Source: Elizabethkingia bruuniana (GTDB lineage Bacteria > Bacteroidota > Bacteroidia > Flavobacteriales > Weeksellaceae). From it: DNA of 64,000 nt. The DNA lies in assembly GCF_002024805.1 (NCBI RefSeq), contig NZ_CP014337.1:1674001-1738000 (forward strand). Direction: 5' to 3'. The translations under genes and the position numbers were made by a program. This document shows positions 2,672-48,745 of the stretch, piece after piece (positions within the stretch are counted from its first letter, which is position 1; each line of letters opens with the position of its first letter). Under the pieces are notes generated by a model, which was not told the origin of the DNA, did not search any database, and saw nothing but the letters and a program-made list of their open reading frames with translations.

Positions 2672-3889
2672 TTAACAGTTATAATACGCTTCGGGGATCT
2701 CAACCTGCTTTTTCGTCATTTGCTCCAATTGCTGAGCAAACTGATCGAAGAAATAAGTGTCTTCTATAAAGACGTACAGATAATTTCCGGTACTAAGATG
2801 CACAATAAGATCTGCGTACCCTGCTCCTTTTGCCGGAAGAACATTCTGAAGTGTAAAATATTTAATTTTTTCAAGATCTAAAATCAATGCAGTATCTATT
2901 CCTGCAAATCCGATTTTATGATTGGTATTATCTATCCAGATACCACTTTTTCCTCCCAGTAGTTCTTTTACCTTTAGCGGAATGTGTTTAATGCCGTCGT
3001 GATCGATATAACTGACTTTCATATCTAATCTGTTATGGAAGGATATTAGTCTGGATATTTCCATCATTTCTTCGTATTCTTTATTCTCTAAAAAATACCT
3101 GTATTCTCTTTTGTTATAGAAATGAAGCGATGTGCTGCCATCATCATAGGCATATTCTTTATCGTAGGTATAGCATATAGAAGCATTTATACCATTTGCC
3201 AAAACAAATTGCAGATAACATTGGTCTTCTCTTTCATAGCCGTATTGATTAATATCAATATCGTCATCAATCCAAAGTCCTCTCAATTGCTGATAGCTTT
3301 TATCAGTATTGGTTTCGTCATACAGGTTCACGAAAAACTCTTGCACAGGGCGATTAGTACTGATGTTGTCAGCATATATTTCTAATTGATCGATAAGGAT
3401 GCCTTCTATTCTAACAGGATATCTGAATCTTAAATATCTGGCACCAAAATCGGTAAAATAAGCTTCTACACAACCCGATGCTTCCAGTTGTTCGTAAGTA
3501 GTATCCCAAGACATCATCTGCCGGGGCTGTGCATATACTTCGTAGCCAAAATCGACATCATCCGGATATTCGTCAAGAATCTGATAATTCCGAGGCATTT
3601 TTTTTGCCCAAATTTTTACTTTATCATCTTCATTTCCGGCTTTACATACTGCAAAAAAGGTTTCGTCATCAAAACCAAACCGATCTGACAATTCTTGATA
3701 TACTTCTGCAAAACCTTTCAGCTCGGTAGATATATAGTGTTGGTGATCTGCGAAAACAAACAGAAAGGGTACATCTCCTAAAATCTGTACATATGCATAT
3801 TGTAGTGACTGAATATTTGCATTTTCAATATTACTATGATCTTTATAAAAAAGTGTATCTCCCTCTATCCAGGTTCCTTTATTATCCAT
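2672..3889 (-). CDS. Uncharacterised 405-aa cytosolic protein
   Basis: Complete frame from ATG at 3889. No signal peptide or membrane segment; the protein is acidic and rich in aromatic residues. The N-terminal ~90 residues (GTWIEGDTLFYKD...LFVFADHQHYISTEL) and the C-terminal ~80 residues (GKSGIWIDNTNHKIGFAGIDTALILDLEKIKYFTL...LYVFIEDTYFFDQFAQQLEQM) resemble each other in style. Each reads like a small beta-rich domain describing a value and a threshold, so an internal duplication is possible. I do not recognise the family. It sits with an SMI1/KNR4 protein and other orphan proteins in a one-strand block, so an immunity-type or contact-dependent role is possible, but this is inference from neighbourhood only. 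Confidence 0.7.
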   Translation of the reverse strand: MDNKGTWIEGDTLFYKDHSNIENANIQSLQYAYVQILGDVPFLFVFADHQHYISTELKGFAEVYQELSDRFGFDDETFFAVCKAGNEDDKVKIWAKKMPRNYQILDEYPDDVDFGYEVYAQPRQMMSWDTTYEQLEASGCVEAYFTDFGARYLRFRYPVRIEGILIDQLEIYADNISTNRPVQEFFVNLYDETNTDKSYQQLRGLWIDDDIDINQYGYEREDQCYLQFVLANGINASICYTYDKEYAYDDGSTSLHFYNKREYRYFLENKEYEEMMEISRLISFHNRLDMKVSYIDHDGIKHIPLKVKELLGGKSGIWIDNTNHKIGFAGIDTALILDLEKIKYFTLQNVLPAKGAGYADLIVHLSTGNYLYVFIEDTYFFDQFAQQLEQMTKKQVEIPEAYYNC

Positions 3890-3935
3890 TTACGGTTTCT
3901 CTTATATATTTTGTAAAGTTGAGTTTTCTATCAGA

Positions 3936-4700
3936 TTAAGTGTATTCTAAACAAATGACAGCTTTTTTAAGCCCTTTGTCATAAAATAAAAATACTTGGT
4001 CTGCCGAATTTTGTTGAAAATCATAGCCCTCCAAACATGCAATATAATCCATCAGGGTTCCGTCAGGTTTAAAGGGTTTCTCAATGAGGTTTTCACCTCC
4101 GAAATTGCATTCTTCTAAGGGGAGCGCATTGGTATTAAGTTCTTCAAAAATACCAAAAATCTTATTTTGTAAACGTTCCTCTGCATATTCTGAGTAATTA
4201 TCTTTCTCCAGATCTTCAACTGTAAGCTTACGTAAACGCTCTAAGCGGCGAATGTCATCCACCTCTAAGCCTGGCCGATTGAAATCTTTTTCATAAAGCT
4301 TATTGTGTTTTTGATAATATTCCTTTTTTAATTGATACATGGCCTCATTCATGTTGTATTCAATTTCTAAATCTGAATAACTGCTTCCATAATTTTCTGG
4401 GGAAATCACGGTATGTGCTGAGAAATAATTCCAATCTGCATCAAATTTGTATTTACCATCAATTACATCGAAACCAAACATATCTGCTTTGGTATATTCT
4501 GTATGGTATTCTGGTGTATCCTCTCCGACACAGCCATCGTAAATTTCCTTTACAGAAACAATGTGCAGCCATTGATCTTCTGCTGGATCAATAAGTTTTA
4601 AATTAATTGAACAAATCGGAAGAAAATATTTTTTATAATTCTCCATATCATCATAAAACACATCTTCATACTCCGGAAAAATTTTTATTAAATCTGTCAT
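3936..4700 (-). CDS. Uncharacterised 254-aa cytosolic protein
   Basis: Complete frame from ATG at 4700, which lies one base past the stop of the lipoprotein gene upstream (stop 4702-4704), so the two are probably co-transcribed and translationally coupled. It has no signal peptide. It is acidic (many D/E/Y) with a charged helical middle (LERLRKLTVEDLEKDNYSEY) and a beta-rich C-terminus (QVFLFYDKGLKKAVICLEYT) of the kind seen in small immunity-like proteins. I do not recognise the family. The tight linkage to the lipoprotein and the SUKH protein suggests one functional unit. Confidence 0.7.
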   Translation of the reverse strand: MTDLIKIFPEYEDVFYDDMENYKKYFLPICSINLKLIDPAEDQWLHIVSVKEIYDGCVGEDTPEYHTEYTKADMFGFDVIDGKYKFDADWNYFSAHTVISPENYGSSYSDLEIEYNMNEAMYQLKKEYYQKHNKLYEKDFNRPGLEVDDIRRLERLRKLTVEDLEKDNYSEYAEERLQNKIFGIFEELNTNALPLEECNFGGENLIEKPFKPDGTLMDYIACLEGYDFQQNSADQVFLFYDKGLKKAVICLEYT

Positions 4701-7952: not shown

Positions 7953-8168
7953 TCAATTGATATTATAGAAATATAATGCTGTTAAAACTACTACAATAAT
8001 TCCGGAAATCAGAAATGAAAGAACGTAATAAAGCACTTTTTGATGTTTTTTCCGTATAGAATTAATGATGAAAATAATGAGCGTATAAGAAAGTCCTGCC
8101 CCGAAGAACAGAGCCAAAGCGGTAATAATCAAAGCTCTTTCCAGGTGTAAATCTGCGGATGATAACAT
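7953..8168 (-). CDS. Small two-helix membrane protein
   Basis: 71 residues with two strong hydrophobic segments (ALIITALALFFGAGLSYTLIIFII, about residues 12-36, and VLYYVLSFLISGIIVVVLTALYFY, about 45-69) separated by a basic turn (NSIRKKHQK). The positive turn suggests that the loop is cytoplasmic. It is 33 bp downstream of the 493-aa lipoprotein gene on the same strand and may be co-transcribed. No family recognised. Confidence 0.6.
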   Translation of the reverse strand: MLSSADLHLERALIITALALFFGAGLSYTLIIFIINSIRKKHQKVLYYVLSFLISGIIVVVLTALYFYNIN

Positions 8169-8201
8169 ACTTAAATTAAATATTGAGATTAAACTACATG
8201 A

Positions 8202-9683
8202 TTATTCTTTGTATTCCTGTCCGGAATAAATATCGATGTAGTAATAAATATTTTGTCCCAAATCCGTTTTAACATTCACCAACCCATCGGAATTAACGGA
8301 CTTATAAGCTTTTAATCCGATACTTTTCTTATTCTTATTATCATATAGTATATACAAACCATCTTTCTCTTCTTGAAGAGTATAAATCTGTTGTTCGGTA
8401 TCCAAAACGGAAATACTATAGCATTCAGGTTTTATCTCCCAAGATTTTGTCCTACTGTTCCATAGTCCCATGGTTCTTTGTTTTTTTCCATCTTCAATAC
8501 TAATAAGGTATGCATCATTCATTCCCCGATAAGACTTTATTTTTCCAAACTTCCAGTTTTTGTCGATGAACTGATCTGGTAAAATCATTTTTCTGTCTGG
8601 CCAGACTATATTCCCGATCTGATCCATAACTTTAAAATTATAGGTACCAATAGAATCTGAAACATTTCCTTCGGTATCGATATAAAGCCAGTCATATGCC
8701 CAGACATCATGATCGTAATTAAAAACCCCTAATAGGAAGTAAGGAGAATTGGTTATGGAATAAACTAAAGAAGCTCTTTTGATGAAATCAATCTGTGAAG
8801 CTGTTGCCTTTGTTATTTCTTTCGGAAATACCTTTTCATATTGAGGGAATGGATACACATCATTGGTTTTACTATCTGTTAAGAGTTTAGGAATTTCCGG
8901 ATCGAAGCGTTCTTTGTTTACTTCTATTAATGTTAAAGTTTCATTTCCAAATCTGATTGAAAGGGTTTCGGTTCCTTTCAAACTATTATGAATTGCTTTT
9001 TTCTGATTCAATTCGTATATCGAAAAATTTGAATTTGAAGCTTTAATAAAGCGTTTATCTTCTAATAATTCAGTAATATTATCCTCAATCTTATTTAATC
9101 GCCTATTCCTGATTTCATAAAGACTTCCATTCCAAAAAACATGGTTTTCATCTACAGAAACAAAATTCAGAGAATACTCATCTTCCAGATATGGAACATC
9201 TTTACTAAGCAAAACTTGATTGGTTTCTAAAATGCCAATCTCAATTTTATGATAGGTTTGCTCTTTCTTAATACCACTTCTCATAATATTCCAATCCCAT
9301 TTCCAGGCTGGCATTTTCTTTTCGTACTCAATTTCTCTTTTATAAAATGTAAGACCGTTGATAACATCTACATTGATCTCATCGGCCGAAAAATCCAAAA
9401 CTATTTTTCCTTTTTCGTCTATAACTGCAGATTCCTTTTTTTCATTTCCTACAATTGCAAAACCTGTAGGTGTAAATAATGATGCAGCTTTGAATTTCTG
9501 TTCGATAACAGGTTTTAGGTTTGTTTTCTCTACATAGACAAAATCATTCTGCTTTGTTAAAAACGGAACGCTACTTATACTTTTCATTTTTGAGGAAATT
9601 AATGTTGGATTATCTTTTTTTTCCTGTGCACAGGCGATGAAGGAAGTCAACATAAAAAAACTTCTAAATACTATTGTTTTCAT
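8202..9683 (-). CDS. WG-repeat-like lipoprotein, 493 aa
   Basis: Begins MKTIVFRSFFMLTSFIACAQ, a signal peptide with a plausible lipobox (IAC, Cys18), so probably membrane-anchored and facing the periplasm or surface. The rest is built from short beta units with recurring themes such as KESAVIDEKGKIVLDF, DWLYIDTEGNVSDSIGTYNF, GLWNSRTKSWEIKP and GLYILYDNKNKKSIGLKAY. These look like diverged WG/propeller blades, as in the edge gene at 1-1918. Function unknown. It heads the minus-strand accessory block; its upstream region (9684-9889) is shared with a divergent 50-aa protein gene. Confidence 0.75.
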   Translation of the reverse strand: MKTIVFRSFFMLTSFIACAQEKKDNPTLISSKMKSISSVPFLTKQNDFVYVEKTNLKPVIEQKFKAASLFTPTGFAIVGNEKKESAVIDEKGKIVLDFSADEINVDVINGLTFYKREIEYEKKMPAWKWDWNIMRSGIKKEQTYHKIEIGILETNQVLLSKDVPYLEDEYSLNFVSVDENHVFWNGSLYEIRNRRLNKIEDNITELLEDKRFIKASNSNFSIYELNQKKAIHNSLKGTETLSIRFGNETLTLIEVNKERFDPEIPKLLTDSKTNDVYPFPQYEKVFPKEITKATASQIDFIKRASLVYSITNSPYFLLGVFNYDHDVWAYDWLYIDTEGNVSDSIGTYNFKVMDQIGNIVWPDRKMILPDQFIDKNWKFGKIKSYRGMNDAYLISIEDGKKQRTMGLWNSRTKSWEIKPECYSISVLDTEQQIYTLQEEKDGLYILYDNKNKKSIGLKAYKSVNSDGLVNVKTDLGQNIYYYIDIYSGQEYKE

Positions 9684-9837
9684 AATCCAAAATTTTATTC
9701 ATCGTACGAGTCAATATTAAAGAGAAATGGAAAATGATACAATCCCGATTATCAGCTATATTTTTAATGCATACAATCGCTCAGTTTGTCAACGATTATA
9801 CTCTATCAGAATCTTAATTAGAATTAATACAAATAAG

Positions 9838-9865
9838 ATAAGCAAATATTATAATATTTGCTTAT
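9838..9865. promoter_or_regulatory. 13-bp perfect inverted repeat upstream of a small membrane protein gene
   Basis: Arms ATAAGCAAATATT and AATATTTGCTTAT are separated by AT. It ends 24 bases before the ATG of the 50-aa gene at 9890 and lies 155 bases upstream of the divergent lipoprotein gene. No gene on the plus strand ends into it, so an operator or a 5'-UTR hairpin is likelier than a terminator. An imperfect -7 element (AATATTTG) lies inside the right arm. Confidence 0.55.
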
Positions 9866-9889
9866 TTTTGTTCTCAATGTATTATTAAC

Positions 9890-10042
9890 ATGGAGAATTT
9901 ACCACAAGAGAATCAATCGAAGTTTAAAAAATGGTTTAAGAGAGTTGGCTGGGCAGGTTTAATCTTCTTTACAGTGAAGGGGCTGGTATGGCTGGTAGTT
10001 TTCTACTTTGGTGCCGATGCACTGAAAGGGTGCTTTAAATAA
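9890..10042 (+). CDS. 50-aa single-pass membrane protein
   Basis: A short frame from ATG 9890 to TAA 10040-10042. It starts with a polar, basic region (about residues 1-18, ending in KKWFKRV), followed by one hydrophobic segment (about residues 19-42, GWAGLIFFTVKGLVWLVVF) and a short tail ending GADALKGCFK. A basic flank and one membrane span suit an inner-membrane microprotein with the N-terminus inside. I believe similar short proteins are annotated in flavobacteria, but cannot confirm it. It is convergent with the YeiH-type gene, with 13 bp between them. Confidence 0.6.
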   Translation: MENLPQENQSKFKKWFKRVGWAGLIFFTVKGLVWLVVFYFGADALKGCFK

Positions 10043-10055
10043 TCCCATCAGTAAC

Positions 10056-10988
10056 CTACGCCACTTCCATTATTACCAACAAGGAGCCTACTGAGATAAA
10101 TACCCAAAGTAGTACACCCTGTACTAAAGGTTTTACACCAACTTTTTTTATTGAGCTCATGCTTAGTCCAGATGCGATTAGGAATAATGTTATATTCAAT
10201 GCTTTTTTAGCTGTAAAAACCATTATTTCACCAAAAGGTTTAATCTGTGGGAAATAATATGCCAATAAAATAGCACCAATAAATCCCAGAATAAAGTATG
10301 GTATTTTGATTTTTTTCACAGAACCTTTATTCAGTACTGACAATAAAATCGAAACCGGAATAATCCATAAAGCACGTTCCAGTTTTACAGTAGTAGCTAT
10401 TTTCAGCGCTTCCTCTCCATATTTCTGAGCAGATCCAATAACTGAACTCGTATCATGTATCGCAATAGCAGACCATAATCCAAACTGATCCTGACTCATA
10501 TTCAGCTGATGGCCGATAACCGGAAAAATAAGTAACGCCAAGGCGTTCAGAATAAAAATACAAGCCATAGCGACAGAAATATCTTCATCTTTGGCATTGA
10601 TAACCGGAGCCAGCGCTGCAATAGCACTACCACCACAAATGGCAGTACCTCCGGAAATTAATGTACTCGTAGATTTATTAATTTTCAGATATCGCCCTAT
10701 AATAAGGCCAACGATTAAGGTGAAAAAGATTGATGCTACAGTAAATATCAATCCCTCCTTCCCTACTTTTATAGCTTCTGTAAGGTTCATTCCGAAACCA
10801 AGCCCTACAACTGAAAATTGCAAAAGATACTTAGCAGCAACAGAATTATGCTTTATATAAGGATGACCGATAAAAAAGCTTACCACGAATCCTAATATTA
10901 AAGCTAATGGTGGTTCCACAAATGGTGTAACACAAAAGATAAGCAATACAAAGAATAGTATTTTCTGAAGTAGTGTTGCTTGTTTCAT
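10056..10988 (-). CDS. YeiH-family (UPF0324) putative sulfate exporter
   Basis: An integral membrane protein with about ten hydrophobic segments. It contains the family signature STLISGGTAICGGSAIAALAPVI and the later IAIHDTSSVIGSAQKYG, both typical of the UPF0324/YeiH (Cons_hypoth698) proteins proposed to export sulfate or sulfite-related anions. The frame is open from 11027, but I prefer the ATG at 10988 (MKQATLLQKILFF). It starts just before the first membrane segment, as in homologues; 11003 is also possible. A LysR-family regulator lies directly upstream on the same strand, the usual yeiE-yeiH pairing. Substrate is not shown by the sequence. Confidence 0.88.
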   Translation of the reverse strand: MKQATLLQKILFFVLLIFCVTPFVEPPLALILGFVVSFFIGHPYIKHNSVAAKYLLQFSVVGLGFGMNLTEAIKVGKEGLIFTVASIFFTLIVGLIIGRYLKINKSTSTLISGGTAICGGSAIAALAPVINAKDEDISVAMACIFILNALALLIFPVIGHQLNMSQDQFGLWSAIAIHDTSSVIGSAQKYGEEALKIATTVKLERALWIIPVSILLSVLNKGSVKKIKIPYFILGFIGAILLAYYFPQIKPFGEIMVFTAKKALNITLFLIASGLSMSSIKKVGVKPLVQGVLLWVFISVGSLLVIMEVA

Positions 10989-11056
10989 AATTTTAAATTT
11001 CATGAAGCAAAGCTCGGAATTAAACATTCCAAAAACTAATCAAAAAATATTATAAT

Positions 11057-11950
11057 CTATAACTTTTTGTTATACATATAAAAGAAATCTAAAAACAGTT
11101 TGGGTATACCATCAAAGTTGCCATGCATGTAGACAGCATTGAATTGTCTTTTGATACTAAAATTCTCTATCTCCAGTACTTTAAACTTACCAGATAGCAA
11201 CTCGTTTTTAAGAGAATGAATCGAGAGGAAACCAATACAATTACTATATTCTAAAAATGTTTTGATACTCTCTGTACTTCCTAACTGAGCCTGAACTTTA
11301 AGATCTTTTAAACGTATTTGATTTTTATTAAAAATATCTGCTATAACATCGAGACTACCAGAGCCGTTTTCACGAAGAACAAAATCCTGTTCTTTAAGCT
11401 CGTTAATACTAATTTCTTCCTGAGCAAATAAAGGATGATTCCGGTGTACAACAGCAACGATCTCATCATCCATTACGGGCTCATATTTTAAACTGGATTT
11501 TCCGGAATGTCCCTCGATAAAGCCCAGATCAATTTTACTTTCCTGTAATTCTTTTTCAATTTCCTCTGTATTGGCATTCAGCATCTGGATGATAATCTGA
11601 GGATGTTTCTGCTTGAACTCAGCCAAGACCCTCGGAAGTATATACTGCCCGATTGTAGTACTTGCTCCTATATTCAGCCTTCCATTAAAGCTTCCTTTCA
11701 GCTCATTTACTTTAAATTGGGCCTCTTCATATACTTTCAGCAGTTGCTGTGCATATTCATAGTATACTTTTCCGGCCTGAGTTAATTCAACCCTTGCATT
11801 CTTACGTTCGAAAAGGCTAACTCCAAGCTCCCCTTCTAATTCTTTTATGTTTTTGGTAACAGCAGGCTGAGTGATAAAGTTGAGTTGTGCTGCTTTGGTA
11901 AAACTTTTATGTTCTGCTGCTGAACAGAATATCTTTAAACGAAAATCCAC
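11057..11950 (-). CDS. LysR-family transcriptional regulator
   Basis: 297 residues. The N-terminal winged helix-turn-helix is clear: LKIFCSAAEHKSFTKAAQLNFITQPAVTKNIKELEGELGVSLFER (about residues 4-50), then a linker helix and a periplasmic-binding-like effector domain starting at GRLNIGASTTIGQYILPRVLAEF (about residue 90). The SxTTIGQYILP segment is seen in the CysB/CysL/YeiE-like branch, which responds to small anionic or sulfur metabolites. It lies immediately upstream of the YeiH-type exporter and presumably controls it. The ligand is inference. Confidence 0.9.
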   Translation of the reverse strand: MDFRLKIFCSAAEHKSFTKAAQLNFITQPAVTKNIKELEGELGVSLFERKNARVELTQAGKVYYEYAQQLLKVYEEAQFKVNELKGSFNGRLNIGASTTIGQYILPRVLAEFKQKHPQIIIQMLNANTEEIEKELQESKIDLGFIEGHSGKSSLKYEPVMDDEIVAVVHRNHPLFAQEEISINELKEQDFVLRENGSGSLDVIADIFNKNQIRLKDLKVQAQLGSTESIKTFLEYSNCIGFLSIHSLKNELLSGKFKVLEIENFSIKRQFNAVYMHGNFDGIPKLFLDFFYMYNKKL

Positions 11951-13875: not shown

Positions 13876-13908
13876 TAAGTAATATCAAAAAATCTATAGA
13901 ATAAGAAA

Positions 13909-13936
13909 AAGGCCGCTCCCATTCAAGAGCGGCCTT
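13909..13936 (+). terminator. Intrinsic terminator after the GNAT gene
   Basis: Ten-base arms AAGGCCGCTC and GAGCGGCCTT around an 8-base loop, followed by CCATTT. The stem is long and GC-rich; the T-run is short. Confidence 0.75.
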
Positions 13937-14060
13937 CCATTTAACACCAAAGAATTATTTAAATATAAAATACCTAATATTATATTTAAATTAACACTTT
14001 CTAATTTATTAGTAAAAAATATTTATTATTTTAGAAAGCCAAACCATATTTTTTTTAGAA

Positions 14061-14291
14061 ATGAAAAAAATCAATTTTGGTGCTTCTAATGGAAAGAAAT
14101 TGTTCAGAGCACAATTAAAGAACGTATTTGGAGGAATTTATCAACAACCTGAGGGATTAGAACATGACCCAAATGATAAGTACTGTGGTGGTGGTGATAT
14201 GTGTAGTGGAAGCAGTGATTGTCCTCCCGGAACGGCATGTGGCGCTTTTGGAAGACCCGGAGAGACTTGCTCCAGATGTCTTTCAGTTTAA
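14061..14291 (+). CDS. Cys-rich small peptide with double-glycine-type leader
   Basis: 76 residues. The leader (about residues 1-25) ends KKLFRAQLKNVFGG, close to the LSxxQLKxIxGG leaders of Bacteroidota natural-product or bacteriocin-like precursors, with GG at 24-25. The core (26-76) is small and hydrophilic with six cysteines (C42, C48, C54, C60, C70, C73) spaced like a disulfide-knotted peptide. It ends SRCLSV. No ABC transporter-peptidase or modification gene is adjacent. A strong hairpin with a T-run (14296-14326) separates it from the GLPGLI gene 51 bp downstream. Function unknown: a secreted peptide, bacteriocin-like or signalling, is inference. A second such pair lies at 47.6-48.7 kb. 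Confidence 0.78.
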   Translation: MKKINFGASNGKKLFRAQLKNVFGGIYQQPEGLEHDPNDKYCGGGDMCSGSSDCPPGTACGAFGRPGETCSRCLSV

Positions 14292-14295
14292 GACA

Positions 14296-14326
14296 AAGCA
14301 ATGAGGATTATCCTTATTGCTTTTTT
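14296..14326 (+). terminator. Hairpin between the Cys-rich peptide and the GLPGLI gene
   Basis: Twelve-base arms AAGCAATGAGGA and TCCTTATTGCTT pair fully (one G-T) around a TTA loop, and the stem runs into TTTTTT. It starts 5 bases after the peptide stop and ends 17 bases before the GLPGLI start. It could be a partial terminator that keeps expression of the downstream gene below that of the peptide, or a stabiliser of the peptide mRNA. Confidence 0.8.
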
Positions 14327-14342
14327 AAATTTATACTGAATT

Positions 14343-15143
14343 ATGAAAATAATATATATACTTACAATAATACTAATGTCTGTACAGCTCTCAGCGCAGA
14401 AAAAAACATTTGTATACCATTTAAAATACAATGACGGTACAGGAAAAGATTCCGTAGAAAGAAATTATGTTTTAGATGTTTCCGATAACAAATCTATTTT
14501 CAGATCTATTTCAGAAAGGAAATCAGATTCCTTATTATCAAATGGAAAATATGGCTTTGGAAGTAGTTATTGTTTTGAAGAGCAATTTTATATCAATAAA
14601 GATTTAAAAGAAAACAAAATACTAAAACAAGTCAGAAATTTTTTTGGACGCTACTTGATTAAAATAGATGAAAAATTAAATTGGAAGATCCTTTCGGAAA
14701 ATAGCAAAATAGGGAGTTATACTGTCCAAAAAGCGGAAACAGATTATGGAGGTAGACATTGGGTCGCTTGGTTTACAACAGAGATTCCAATTCCGGAAGG
14801 CCCATATATATTTAATGGTCTCCCGGGTCTCATAGTTCAGGTAACTGACGATAAGAACGATTATGCTTTTTCTTTAAATGAAGTAAAAAACTTTGATGGC
14901 AATTTATTTCAGATGAAAAAAGGAATTATTATGGATTTCCCAACTTTTCAAAAGTTTTCTATGAATTATTATAATGATCCTTTTTCAGAAGCAGCAGCTA
15001 GAAATATGCCAATGGCAAAAGAAGATGAGAATGGAAATCCACAAAAGATTACAAAAAAAGAAATGAACGATATGGCTCAAAAATATATTAAGGAAAAAGG
15101 GAGTAATCCAATTGAATTAAAATATAAAAACATATACAATTAA
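14343..15143 (+). CDS. GLPGLI family secreted protein, locus 1
   Basis: 266 residues with a signal peptide (MKIIYILTIILMSVQLSAQ). The family signature is at residues 159-164 (GLPGLI) inside GPYIFNGLPGLIVQV, preceded by the conserved KAETDYGGRHWVAWFTTEIPIPEGP. This is the TIGR01200 family, secreted proteins widespread in Bacteroidota and of unknown function. The first ~130 residues form a beta-rich domain (FVYHLKYND...NYVLDVSDNKSIFRS) and the C-terminus is a charged helical tail. It is probably co-transcribed, at a lower level, with the Cys-rich peptide upstream. A second GLPGLI protein (47588-48406) shares the central segment almost exactly. Confidence 0.92.
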   Translation: MKIIYILTIILMSVQLSAQKKTFVYHLKYNDGTGKDSVERNYVLDVSDNKSIFRSISERKSDSLLSNGKYGFGSSYCFEEQFYINKDLKENKILKQVRNFFGRYLIKIDEKLNWKILSENSKIGSYTVQKAETDYGGRHWVAWFTTEIPIPEGPYIFNGLPGLIVQVTDDKNDYAFSLNEVKNFDGNLFQMKKGIIMDFPTFQKFSMNYYNDPFSEAAARNMPMAKEDENGNPQKITKKEMNDMAQKYIKEKGSNPIELKYKNIYN

Positions 15144-15144
15144 A

Positions 15145-15168
15145 ATAGCCCCTTTCGGGGCTATTATT
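15145..15168. terminator. Bidirectional terminator between GLPGLI gene and carB
   Basis: ATAGCCCC-tttc-GGGGCTAT at 15145-15164. On the plus strand it is followed by TATTTTTTATTT, and on the minus strand by TTTTAATTG. It closes both the GLPGLI gene (stop just upstream) and the pyrimidine operon, whose carB stop is 29 bases away. Confidence 0.85.
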
Positions 15169-47437: not shown

Positions 47438-47510
<73 letters not shown>

Positions 47511-47519
47511 CTAAATCAA

Positions 47520-47548: not shown

Positions 47549-47587
47549 TATTTATATCTTTAGAGCAAAATTAACTTTCTAAAGTTC

Positions 47588-48406
47588 TTATTTAGAATAT
47601 TTTATTATTCTATTTTTCTCTACTTGATTATCATTTTTCTTTATGAATCCCTGAGTAGAAAGTGTAGCTTCTCTAAAATCCAGTTTTTTAACCCCGCCAC
47701 TACCATCATCTTGAACAGCTTTATAACCTCCTGCTTTTACAAATGCATAAGGATCAATATAAAAATCTTGCTGAATTTTTATAAATGTATCCCAGTTTAT
47801 TTCCTTTGCTCCCTGTACTGAAAAATTGGTATCAGAATTAAATTTTCGAGTTTTTGTTAATTTAAATACATACTCGTGATTTGAATCCTCAATTTGAATT
47901 ATTAACCCAGGTAAACCATGAAAAATATAAGGCCCCTCTGAAAGTTGAATTTCTTGCGTAAACCAAGCAACCCAATGTCTTCCTCCATAATCTGTTTCAG
48001 CTTTTTGACATTCTAGACTACCTATTTTTTGAATATCTGATAAAAGCCTCCAATTTAATTTTGCATCAATATCGATGTAAAATTTATCTAAACTAACTGG
48101 AGAAACAATATACTTCGTAATTTTATTTTTCTTTAGATCCTTTTTTATATAGATCTGATCGCTATAATTATTGCTATATGCTAATCCATAGCTTCCTCTA
48201 TAATTTATTATCGAATCAGAATGTCTTCGGAAATCATCTCTAAAAACAGATTCACTACCAATTATATCTAAAAAAAAAGTTTTTGTTTTAATATAATCAC
48301 TGCTTGTTGATGGTTTATACGTAAGTTCATATATTATTGATGTGTTTTGCGCCCCAAAAAAAGAAGACACAAAAAACATTATTAATATGTTTATTTTGAT
48401 GTACAT
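47588..48406 (-). CDS. GLPGLI family secreted protein, locus 2
   Basis: 272 residues with a signal peptide (MYIKINILIMFFVSSFFGAQ). The family signature is GPYIFHGLPGLIIQI (GLPGLI at 164-169), preceded by QKAETDYGGRHWVAWFTQEI, nearly identical to the locus-1 protein (14343-15143). Both share the early beta-rich part and a stretch LDIIGSESVFRDDF compared with LDVSDNKSIFRSIS. The C-terminal part is more diverged (lysine- and asparagine-rich). Function unknown. It follows a second Cys-rich peptide gene with a hairpin in between (48424-48453), the same arrangement as at 14 kb. Confidence 0.92.
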   Translation of the reverse strand: MYIKINILIMFFVSSFFGAQNTSIIYELTYKPSTSSDYIKTKTFFLDIIGSESVFRDDFRRHSDSIINYRGSYGLAYSNNYSDQIYIKKDLKKNKITKYIVSPVSLDKFYIDIDAKLNWRLLSDIQKIGSLECQKAETDYGGRHWVAWFTQEIQLSEGPYIFHGLPGLIIQIEDSNHEYVFKLTKTRKFNSDTNFSVQGAKEINWDTFIKIQQDFYIDPYAFVKAGGYKAVQDDGSGGVKKLDFREATLSTQGFIKKNDNQVEKNRIIKYSK

Positions 48407-48423
48407 AATATTCTAAATTTATA

Positions 48424-48453
48424 AACTGTCTCTAGGATATCTTAGAGGCAGTT
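48424..48453 (-). promoter_or_regulatory. Hairpin between the second Cys-rich peptide and GLPGLI gene
   Basis: On the minus strand AACTGCCTCTA and TAGAGACAGTT pair with one mismatch around an 8-base loop, followed by TTATAAATTT. The T-run is weaker than at locus 1 but the position (between peptide stop and GLPGLI start) is the same. Confidence 0.6.
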
Positions 48454-48476
48454 AAACTTTCTTTAATTTAAAAAAT

Positions 48477-48656
48477 TTAGAGACATCTCCATGCAGACCA
48501 ATCTCCATTAGCATAATCTTTTCCATGAAAAATCCCACATTCTAAGCCATACTGCCCACACGTGTCATTTTTCCCTGGTACACACATACTTTCAGGAGCC
48601 TGCCCTCTTTTTAGATTTTTTAAATCTGTTATGGATAATCTTTTTAGATTTTTCAT
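48477..48656 (-). CDS. Cys-containing small peptide with leader-like N-terminus, locus 2
   Basis: 59 codons from ATG 48656 to TAA 48477-48479, read by hand and too short for an ordinary gene finder. The N-terminus KRLSITDLKNLKRGQ resembles the LSxxQLKxIxGG leader of Bacteroidota peptide precursors, but has RG in place of GG (G18). The core contains four cysteines (C25, C33, C40, C58) in a short hydrophilic, tryptophan-containing sequence (MCVPGKNDTCGQYGLECGIF). The GLPGLI gene starts 71 bp downstream. I regard it as a paralogue in role, but not in sequence, of the peptide at 14061. Confidence 0.65.
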   Translation of the reverse strand: MKNLKRLSITDLKNLKRGQAPESMCVPGKNDTCGQYGLECGIFHGKDYANGDWSAWRCL

Positions 48657-48745
48657 ATTTTAATAATTAATATCTTAAATATAAATATTTAATCTAAATA
48701 AATTGATTAACATAATATATTTTCAATAACAAAGCCTGTTAAAAC

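Follow-up and report, generated by a model that had tools for sequence, protein, structure and literature searches.

GLPGLI Proteins as Partners of Cysteine-Rich Leader Peptides in a Conserved Two-Gene Module of Elizabethkingia and Its Relatives

Introduction

The GLPGLI proteins (TIGR01200; Pfam Porph_ging, PF09697) form a heavily multiplied family that, to our knowledge, has no known function. The 4.43 Mb genome of Elizabethkingia bruuniana contains 40 GLPGLI genes. Two of these, in a stretch of 64,000 nucleotides (NZ_CP014337.1, positions 1,674,001 to 1,738,000; here called the window), each follow a short open reading frame for a cysteine-rich peptide. Do peptide and GLPGLI protein belong together, and if so, what does the GLPGLI protein do for the peptide? 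An earlier note on this DNA suggested a conserved two-gene module, with the GLPGLI protein serving in peptide processing, folding or immunity, and knew of no such system. Our literature searches likewise found no peptide/GLPGLI system or link and no proposed GLPGLI role; one paper lists family members, as regulated genes only.

Two Cassettes in the Window

The first cassette has the following features.

13879..15167, + strand: cassette 1, whole unit, present in this genome and missing from three congeners
13909..13936, no strand assigned: terminator-like hairpin 5' of the cassette, 10-bp stem, -19.0 kcal/mol
14061..14291, + strand: peptide 1, 76 aa, six Cys, 25-aa leader ending LKNVFGG
14295..14323, + strand: intergenic stem-loop with T-run, attenuator/terminator-like, -15.7 kcal/mol, z -5.3
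14343..15143, + strand: GLPGLI protein 1, 266 aa, Sec-type signal, matches to TIGR01200 and PF09697
15144..15165, + strand: terminator hairpin 3' of GLPGLI 1, -15.0 kcal/mol, T-run

The cysteines of peptide 1 are residues 42, 48, 54, 60, 70 and 73. The 51-nt gap behind its gene contains a 13-bp stem with a T-run. GLPGLI 1 is a clear family member, matching TIGR01200 with 144.3 bits (E 4.7e-42; curated cut-off 50 bits). The earlier description of a six-cysteine double-glycine peptide followed by a strong hairpin and a secreted GLPGLI protein is confirmed. The cassette lies between a GNAT gene and carB, which are about 42 bp apart in two congeners without it (G001 and G005) and about 170 bp apart in the third (G003); the flanks alone align, and the upstream hairpin falls within the stretch missing from the empty site.

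The second cassette is arranged as follows.

47552..48743, - strand: cassette 2, whole unit, adjoining tRNA-Met
47588..48406, - strand: GLPGLI protein 2, 272 aa, TIGR01200 E 4.1e-41
48425..48452, - strand: intergenic stem-loop, z -2.5 for the whole gap
48477..48656, - strand: peptide 2, 59 aa, four Cys, core C..G..DTCGQYGLECG..C

The tRNA-Met directly adjoining this cassette (window 47438-47511) is a possible exchange hotspot. GLPGLI 2 scores 141.3 bits against TIGR01200, again above the cut-off. As noted earlier, pair 2 has the gene order of pair 1 with a hairpin in the gap (70 nt), but it is on the minus strand, its peptide has four cysteines, and the leader ends in LKNLKRG, with GG replaced by RG. 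The E. miricola ortholog of peptide 2 retains LKGG, and DNA identity across the region is 91%. Comparison with the E. miricola copy gave dN/dS values of 0.17 for the peptide, 0.12 for its core and 0.21 for the GLPGLI gene, and these values mark the small ORF as a genuine gene under purifying selection. The AlphaFold model of peptide 2 was of low confidence (pLDDT 70), Foldseek returned no matches for it, and the model was set aside.

Pairing in the Genome and Across Weeksellaceae

This genome encodes at least 42 leader-type peptides. A GLPGLI gene lies 30-70 nt downstream on the same strand for 8 of the 42 examined (P about 1e-8, assuming a generous 1% rate), and this adjacency exceeds chance. 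The leader-type peptides without GLPGLI are mostly in tandem peptide arrays, one of which is beside HlyD, C39 ABC transporter and VKOR-thioredoxin genes. At G000 positions 2674382-2681326, at least five double-glycine peptides occur with a C39 ABC transporter, HlyD and VKOR-thioredoxin, and no GLPGLI gene. There are three C39 transporters in the genome, one within the peptide-HlyD-VKOR cluster (about 2.679-2.681 Mb).

A search of 39 other genomes for the exact 76-aa peptide 1 gave no relative, and spread was therefore assessed with family profiles. Profile A2 was built from 18 paired peptides and describes a leader followed by C-x(3-7)-D-x-C-xx-YGL-x-CG-x(10-17)-C. Both window peptides are training sequences (E 6e-11 for peptide 1 and 3.8e-27 for peptide 2; such short-profile E-values are rough). 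The family, here YGL-C, has the consensus leader MKNLKKLSRxDLKxxxGG and four conserved cysteines. Over 296 Weeksellaceae genomes, the matches fell into a full-length group (E 6e-16 or better, plus one at 3e-10) and a leader-only group. A same-strand GLPGLI ORF lies directly downstream in 33/33 full-length matches inspected. Because the profiles were trained on paired peptides, the held-out count of 17/17 weighs most. Of eight controls that share the leader but have different cores, none is followed by GLPGLI (0/8; Fisher 9e-7; some of the eight are closely related to one another).

A second core, CC-CST (CC-x-CS), is unrelated to YGL-C and was found by tracing a cassette swap. Its profile gave 20 matches, with GLPGLI downstream in 18 (14 of the 16 held out), mostly within 130 nt and in a few cases at 190-430 nt. 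The remaining two, L305 and L316, have no neighbouring GLPGLI gene.

Most peptides with a third core (T-x-SCG...C, here T.SCG) are also paired with GLPGLI, and they carry either a double-glycine leader or a Sec-type signal. GLPGLI is the next gene in two held-out Chryseobacterium matches and on a Prevotella corporis plasmid. A phylum-wide search found two clear new loci only, both with a GLPGLI-like or GLPGLI gene next, and the spread of this core beyond the loci found is uncertain. Since the same core appears to be exported via either leader type and is accompanied by GLPGLI in both cases, the core is likely to be what the partner targets. In another GLPGLI group of the E. bruuniana genome, the gene immediately upstream encodes a small protein with a Sec-type signal in place of a double-glycine peptide. 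Such proteins (68-108 aa, usually two Cys) precede GLPGLI genes at G000 positions 425772, 955954, 980015, 3628903 and 3987876, and three of the five carry the T.SCG core common to double-glycine peptides.

The intergenic hairpin reaches z <= -2.5 in 20 of 24 gaps and is present in a CC-type pair as well. The conserved module foreseen in the earlier note, with co-occurrence beyond chance, is borne out by these counts. Small cassettes of a cysteine-rich, secreted, bacteriocin-like peptide and its own GLPGLI protein appear to be numerous in flavobacteria such as Elizabethkingia and Chryseobacterium.

Co-Diversification of GLPGLI and Peptide Core

In the GLPGLI tree, all 28 YGL-C partners fall in one clade of 41 (SH-aLRT 99), and 17/17 CC-CST partners fall in one clade of 25 (SH-aLRT 72, weak). 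Labels change 19 times on the tree, against a shuffled mean of 49. Within the YGL-C set, Mantel tests correlate GLPGLI distance with the distance of the mature peptide (r 0.76) and of the leader (r 0.44). The GLPGLI clades track the peptide core; shared ancestry of the pair contributes to the correlation, which therefore demonstrates joint inheritance rather than binding.

The idea that every GLPGLI gene has a peptide was rejected: 32 of the 40 in this genome are without a double-glycine peptide. The earlier note had named a majority of peptide-less GLPGLI genes as grounds against the module. Such a majority exists, but the module stands, because the paired GLPGLIs form particular clades. Judged from the sequences compared here, peptide pairing is a property of GLPGLI subclades and not of the whole family, and the peptide-less majority suggests that the role of the family at large may be wider.

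Gain, Loss and Exchange of Cassettes

The site of cassette 2 is variable among relatives. G001 has an orthologous pair, with the same sequence as in E. miricola GTC_862, G005 has an empty site (28 bp), and G003 has another CC-type peptide with its own GLPGLI. At two loci the peptide is broken and the GLPGLI gene is intact (L110, by a stop; L114, by a frameshift). In E. miricola (L127), the leader is retained but is joined to a CC core in place of the expected YGL-C core. Directly behind this intact peptide, a GLPGLI gene of the YGL-C type is broken by a frameshift; it is followed by an undamaged GLPGLI gene, the ortholog of which clusters with a CC partner. The locus counts in favour of a core-specific partner. 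The broken adjacent GLPGLI weakens a strict order of decay, toxin before immunity. All told, the comparison establishes an authentic module that is conserved and swappable and whose partner is tied to the peptide core.

Predicted Structure and Export Machinery

The AF2 model of GLPGLI 1 is confident (pLDDT 92). Its nearest match is the N-terminal domain of PNGase F-II (PDB 4r4z, 4r4x; 7zgn), with Z 14.9 over 173 residues at 18% identity; the fold is the same, but there it is part of a glycosidase, while GLPGLI stands alone. Weaker matches were found to the half-barrels of LolA, RseB, MucB, LppX and ependymin (Z about 6-8; for LolA up to 8.2, near the level possible for a mere common arrangement). 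A half-barrel with a ligand cradle would be the common trait, and no sequence relation to GLPGLI was detected. GLPGLI is tentatively read as a LolA-like half-barrel with a predicted ligand cradle.

A locus of Chryseobacterium sp. Leaf404 (L109, 1591-7083) contains two GLPGLI genes, a VKOR oxidoreductase and a C39 peptidase ABC transporter. One of the GLPGLI genes sits behind an intact CC-type peptide; the core of a second peptide, with six cysteines, is attached to the end of a truncated VKOR ORF, a fusion that probably arose through recombination. Through these genes the pairs are linked with known machinery for bacteriocin export and disulfide formation.

Comparison With Known Systems

Bacteroidetocins are class IIa-like peptide toxins of Bacteroidales whose published loci have neither an immunity protein nor GLPGLI (PMC6671954), and they target BamA (PMC8546649). 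Like the peptides described here, they are small, come from Bacteroidota, and combine Cys pairs and a short GG leader with an exporter of the C39 type and a thiol oxidoreductase; the likeness is one of leader, cysteines and locus features. The short GG leader and the at least two, typically four, cysteines of bacteroidetocins are present in the family, with RG in peptide 2. The C39 exporter and thiol oxidoreductase of bacteroidetocin loci are absent at the window cassettes and present at L109 and elsewhere in the E. bruuniana genome. The cassettes differ from bacteroidetocins in that they usually lie apart from the exporter gene and consist of two genes, of which the peptide gene is one.

Class II bacteriocin/immunity pairs, for example pneumococcal blp, share a C39 exporter. 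The cassettes resemble them in having many swappable peptide and partner pairs per genome, double-glycine leaders, an exporter in trans and orphan partners. The adjacency pattern is also that of bacteriocin and immunity genes: partner orphans are common (13/41 in the YGL-C clade lack a peptide) and peptide orphans are rare (0/33 YGL-C, 2/20 CC-CST). The partner in class II systems is a small membrane protein, whereas GLPGLI is predicted to be secreted or periplasmic and LolA-like, and activity of the peptides here is putative.

Two existing families touch on the leaders. NCBIfam NF047798 (leader_Chryseo, 'bacteriocin-like protein') covers the 18-aa leader only. Homologous paired peptides pass its cut-off of 23.5 bits (30.9, 36.5, 37.0 and 38.4 bits); the window peptides, both with altered leaders, fall below it (14.5 and 12.2 bits), and the cores described here match no family. 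For TIGR04149 (rSAM-modified RiPP precursors; cut-off 25 bits), peptide 1 scores 12.0 and relatives at most 18.6.

The Role of the GLPGLI Partner

We propose that the pair is a self-contained, exchangeable secreted-peptide cassette with a periplasmic GLPGLI protein that recognizes the core and most likely confers immunity, a model to which we give an even chance. The first gene would encode a bacteriocin-like precursor, whose leader would be cut at Gly-Gly. A C39-peptidase ABC transporter, with its gene at another place in the genome, would export the core; in related modules, export would proceed by Sec instead. The core would be disulfide-bonded, probably aided by a VKOR-thioredoxin oxidoreductase. 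The terminator-like intergenic hairpin, by partial termination, would yield much peptide mRNA and less GLPGLI mRNA. GLPGLI, as a periplasmic LolA-like half-barrel, would recognize the cognate mature core and most likely capture a toxic peptide, thereby protecting the producer.

Among the processing, folding and immunity roles raised in the earlier note, immunity is favoured, though sequence alone cannot settle the choice. Producer immunity would be the most economical role because the exporter is in trans, orphan partners are common, unpaired peptides are rare and the two genes are exchanged jointly. Retention of GLPGLI after peptide decay (L110, L114 and the change of GG to RG in pair 2) also counts for it. 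Several points may be held against immunity. The nearest studied peptides, the bacteroidetocins, do without an immunity protein (PMC6671954). Peptide-less GLPGLI genes, including the L126-L186 ortholog group, hint at a wider family role, a LolA-like fold might suit a carrier or chaperone equally well, and neither the broken GLPGLI behind an intact peptide in L127 nor the unpaired L305 and L316 would be expected.

The main rival to immunity is that GLPGLI acts as a dedicated periplasmic carrier or folding chaperone, which would take over the core once it has crossed the inner membrane, hold it in the half-barrel, and aid its disulfides or hand it to an outer-membrane barrel. The LolA family consists of periplasmic carriers, and core-specific co-diversification would suit a carrier too. 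Gene order on the P. corporis plasmid (Sec-type peptide, GLPGLI, 860-aa outer-membrane barrel-like protein) and at L131, where GLPGLI is followed by a gene for a CarboxypepD-type outer-membrane-like protein, points the same way. However, C39/HlyD systems usually cross both membranes without a periplasmic stage, no barrel gene lies next to the YGL-C pairs inspected, and a dedicated carrier would have little reason to persist once its peptide has decayed or been lost, as GLPGLI does. We consider this role possible but rather unlikely.

A signalling module, with the peptide as pheromone and GLPGLI as its periplasmic receptor, would recall the RseB and MucB half-barrels that sense envelope ligands and are among the structural matches, and peptide/receptor pairs likewise co-diversify. 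The cassette neighbourhoods inspected have no regulator or transmembrane signalling gene, however, and many different pairs occur per genome, which makes signalling improbable. Enzymatic modification or processing of the peptide by GLPGLI is, if anything, a shade more doubtful: the family has invariant Trp, Arg and Asp residues and its nearest fold comes from a glycosidase, but neither Cys nor His is invariant in the conserved columns, PNGase F-II is matched in its N-terminal domain and not in the catalytic part, and leaders of this type are cut by C39 peptidases. That abundant GLPGLI genes, most of them without a double-glycine peptide, merely end up beside small ORFs is barely conceivable given the near-obligate pairing relative to leader-matched controls, the held-out test, the similar spacing and hairpin, the clade tracking and the joint gain and loss.

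It may be that GLPGLI proteins as a class are dedicated periplasmic recognition partners, for immunity or as carriers, of small exported disulfide peptides in Bacteroidota, a generalization that we hold tentatively and at slightly under an even chance. If true, Bacteroidota would have an extensive, diversified repertoire for peptide warfare or signalling, built from swappable cassettes with multiple unrelated cores and using two routes of export, overlooked because the peptides are tiny and GLPGLI function is not known. GLPGLI would gain a proposed role, as a partner with specificity for the core of a secreted peptide, and this role becomes testable with a two-gene construct and synthetic peptide. 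The pairing also predicts many, possibly antibacterial, disulfide peptides that can be found upstream of GLPGLI genes.

Other GLPGLI Loci

On Chryseobacterium and Riemerella plasmids, no small peptide gene is annotated immediately before the GLPGLI genes. Searches of PHROGs and PADLOC gave nothing useful, and a phage link was rejected, as no phage record encodes the GLPGLI protein. The 12-kb P. corporis plasmid (NZ_CP118018, L281) carries the Sec-type two-Cys peptide, a hairpin-like gap and GLPGLI at 3521-4563, and a second GLPGLI copy with the barrel-like gene at 8160-11604. One GLPGLI ortholog (MKKLGIIALALF...; L126-L186) is conserved in many Chryseobacterium species and has no peptide upstream. 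In the E. bruuniana genome, GLPGLI paralogs also stand in tandem at G000 positions 1573800-1577077, 1509153-1511932, 3848055-3849771 and 4144292-4145756; most of them lack a peptide, and by analogy these may be orphan immunity-like arrays.
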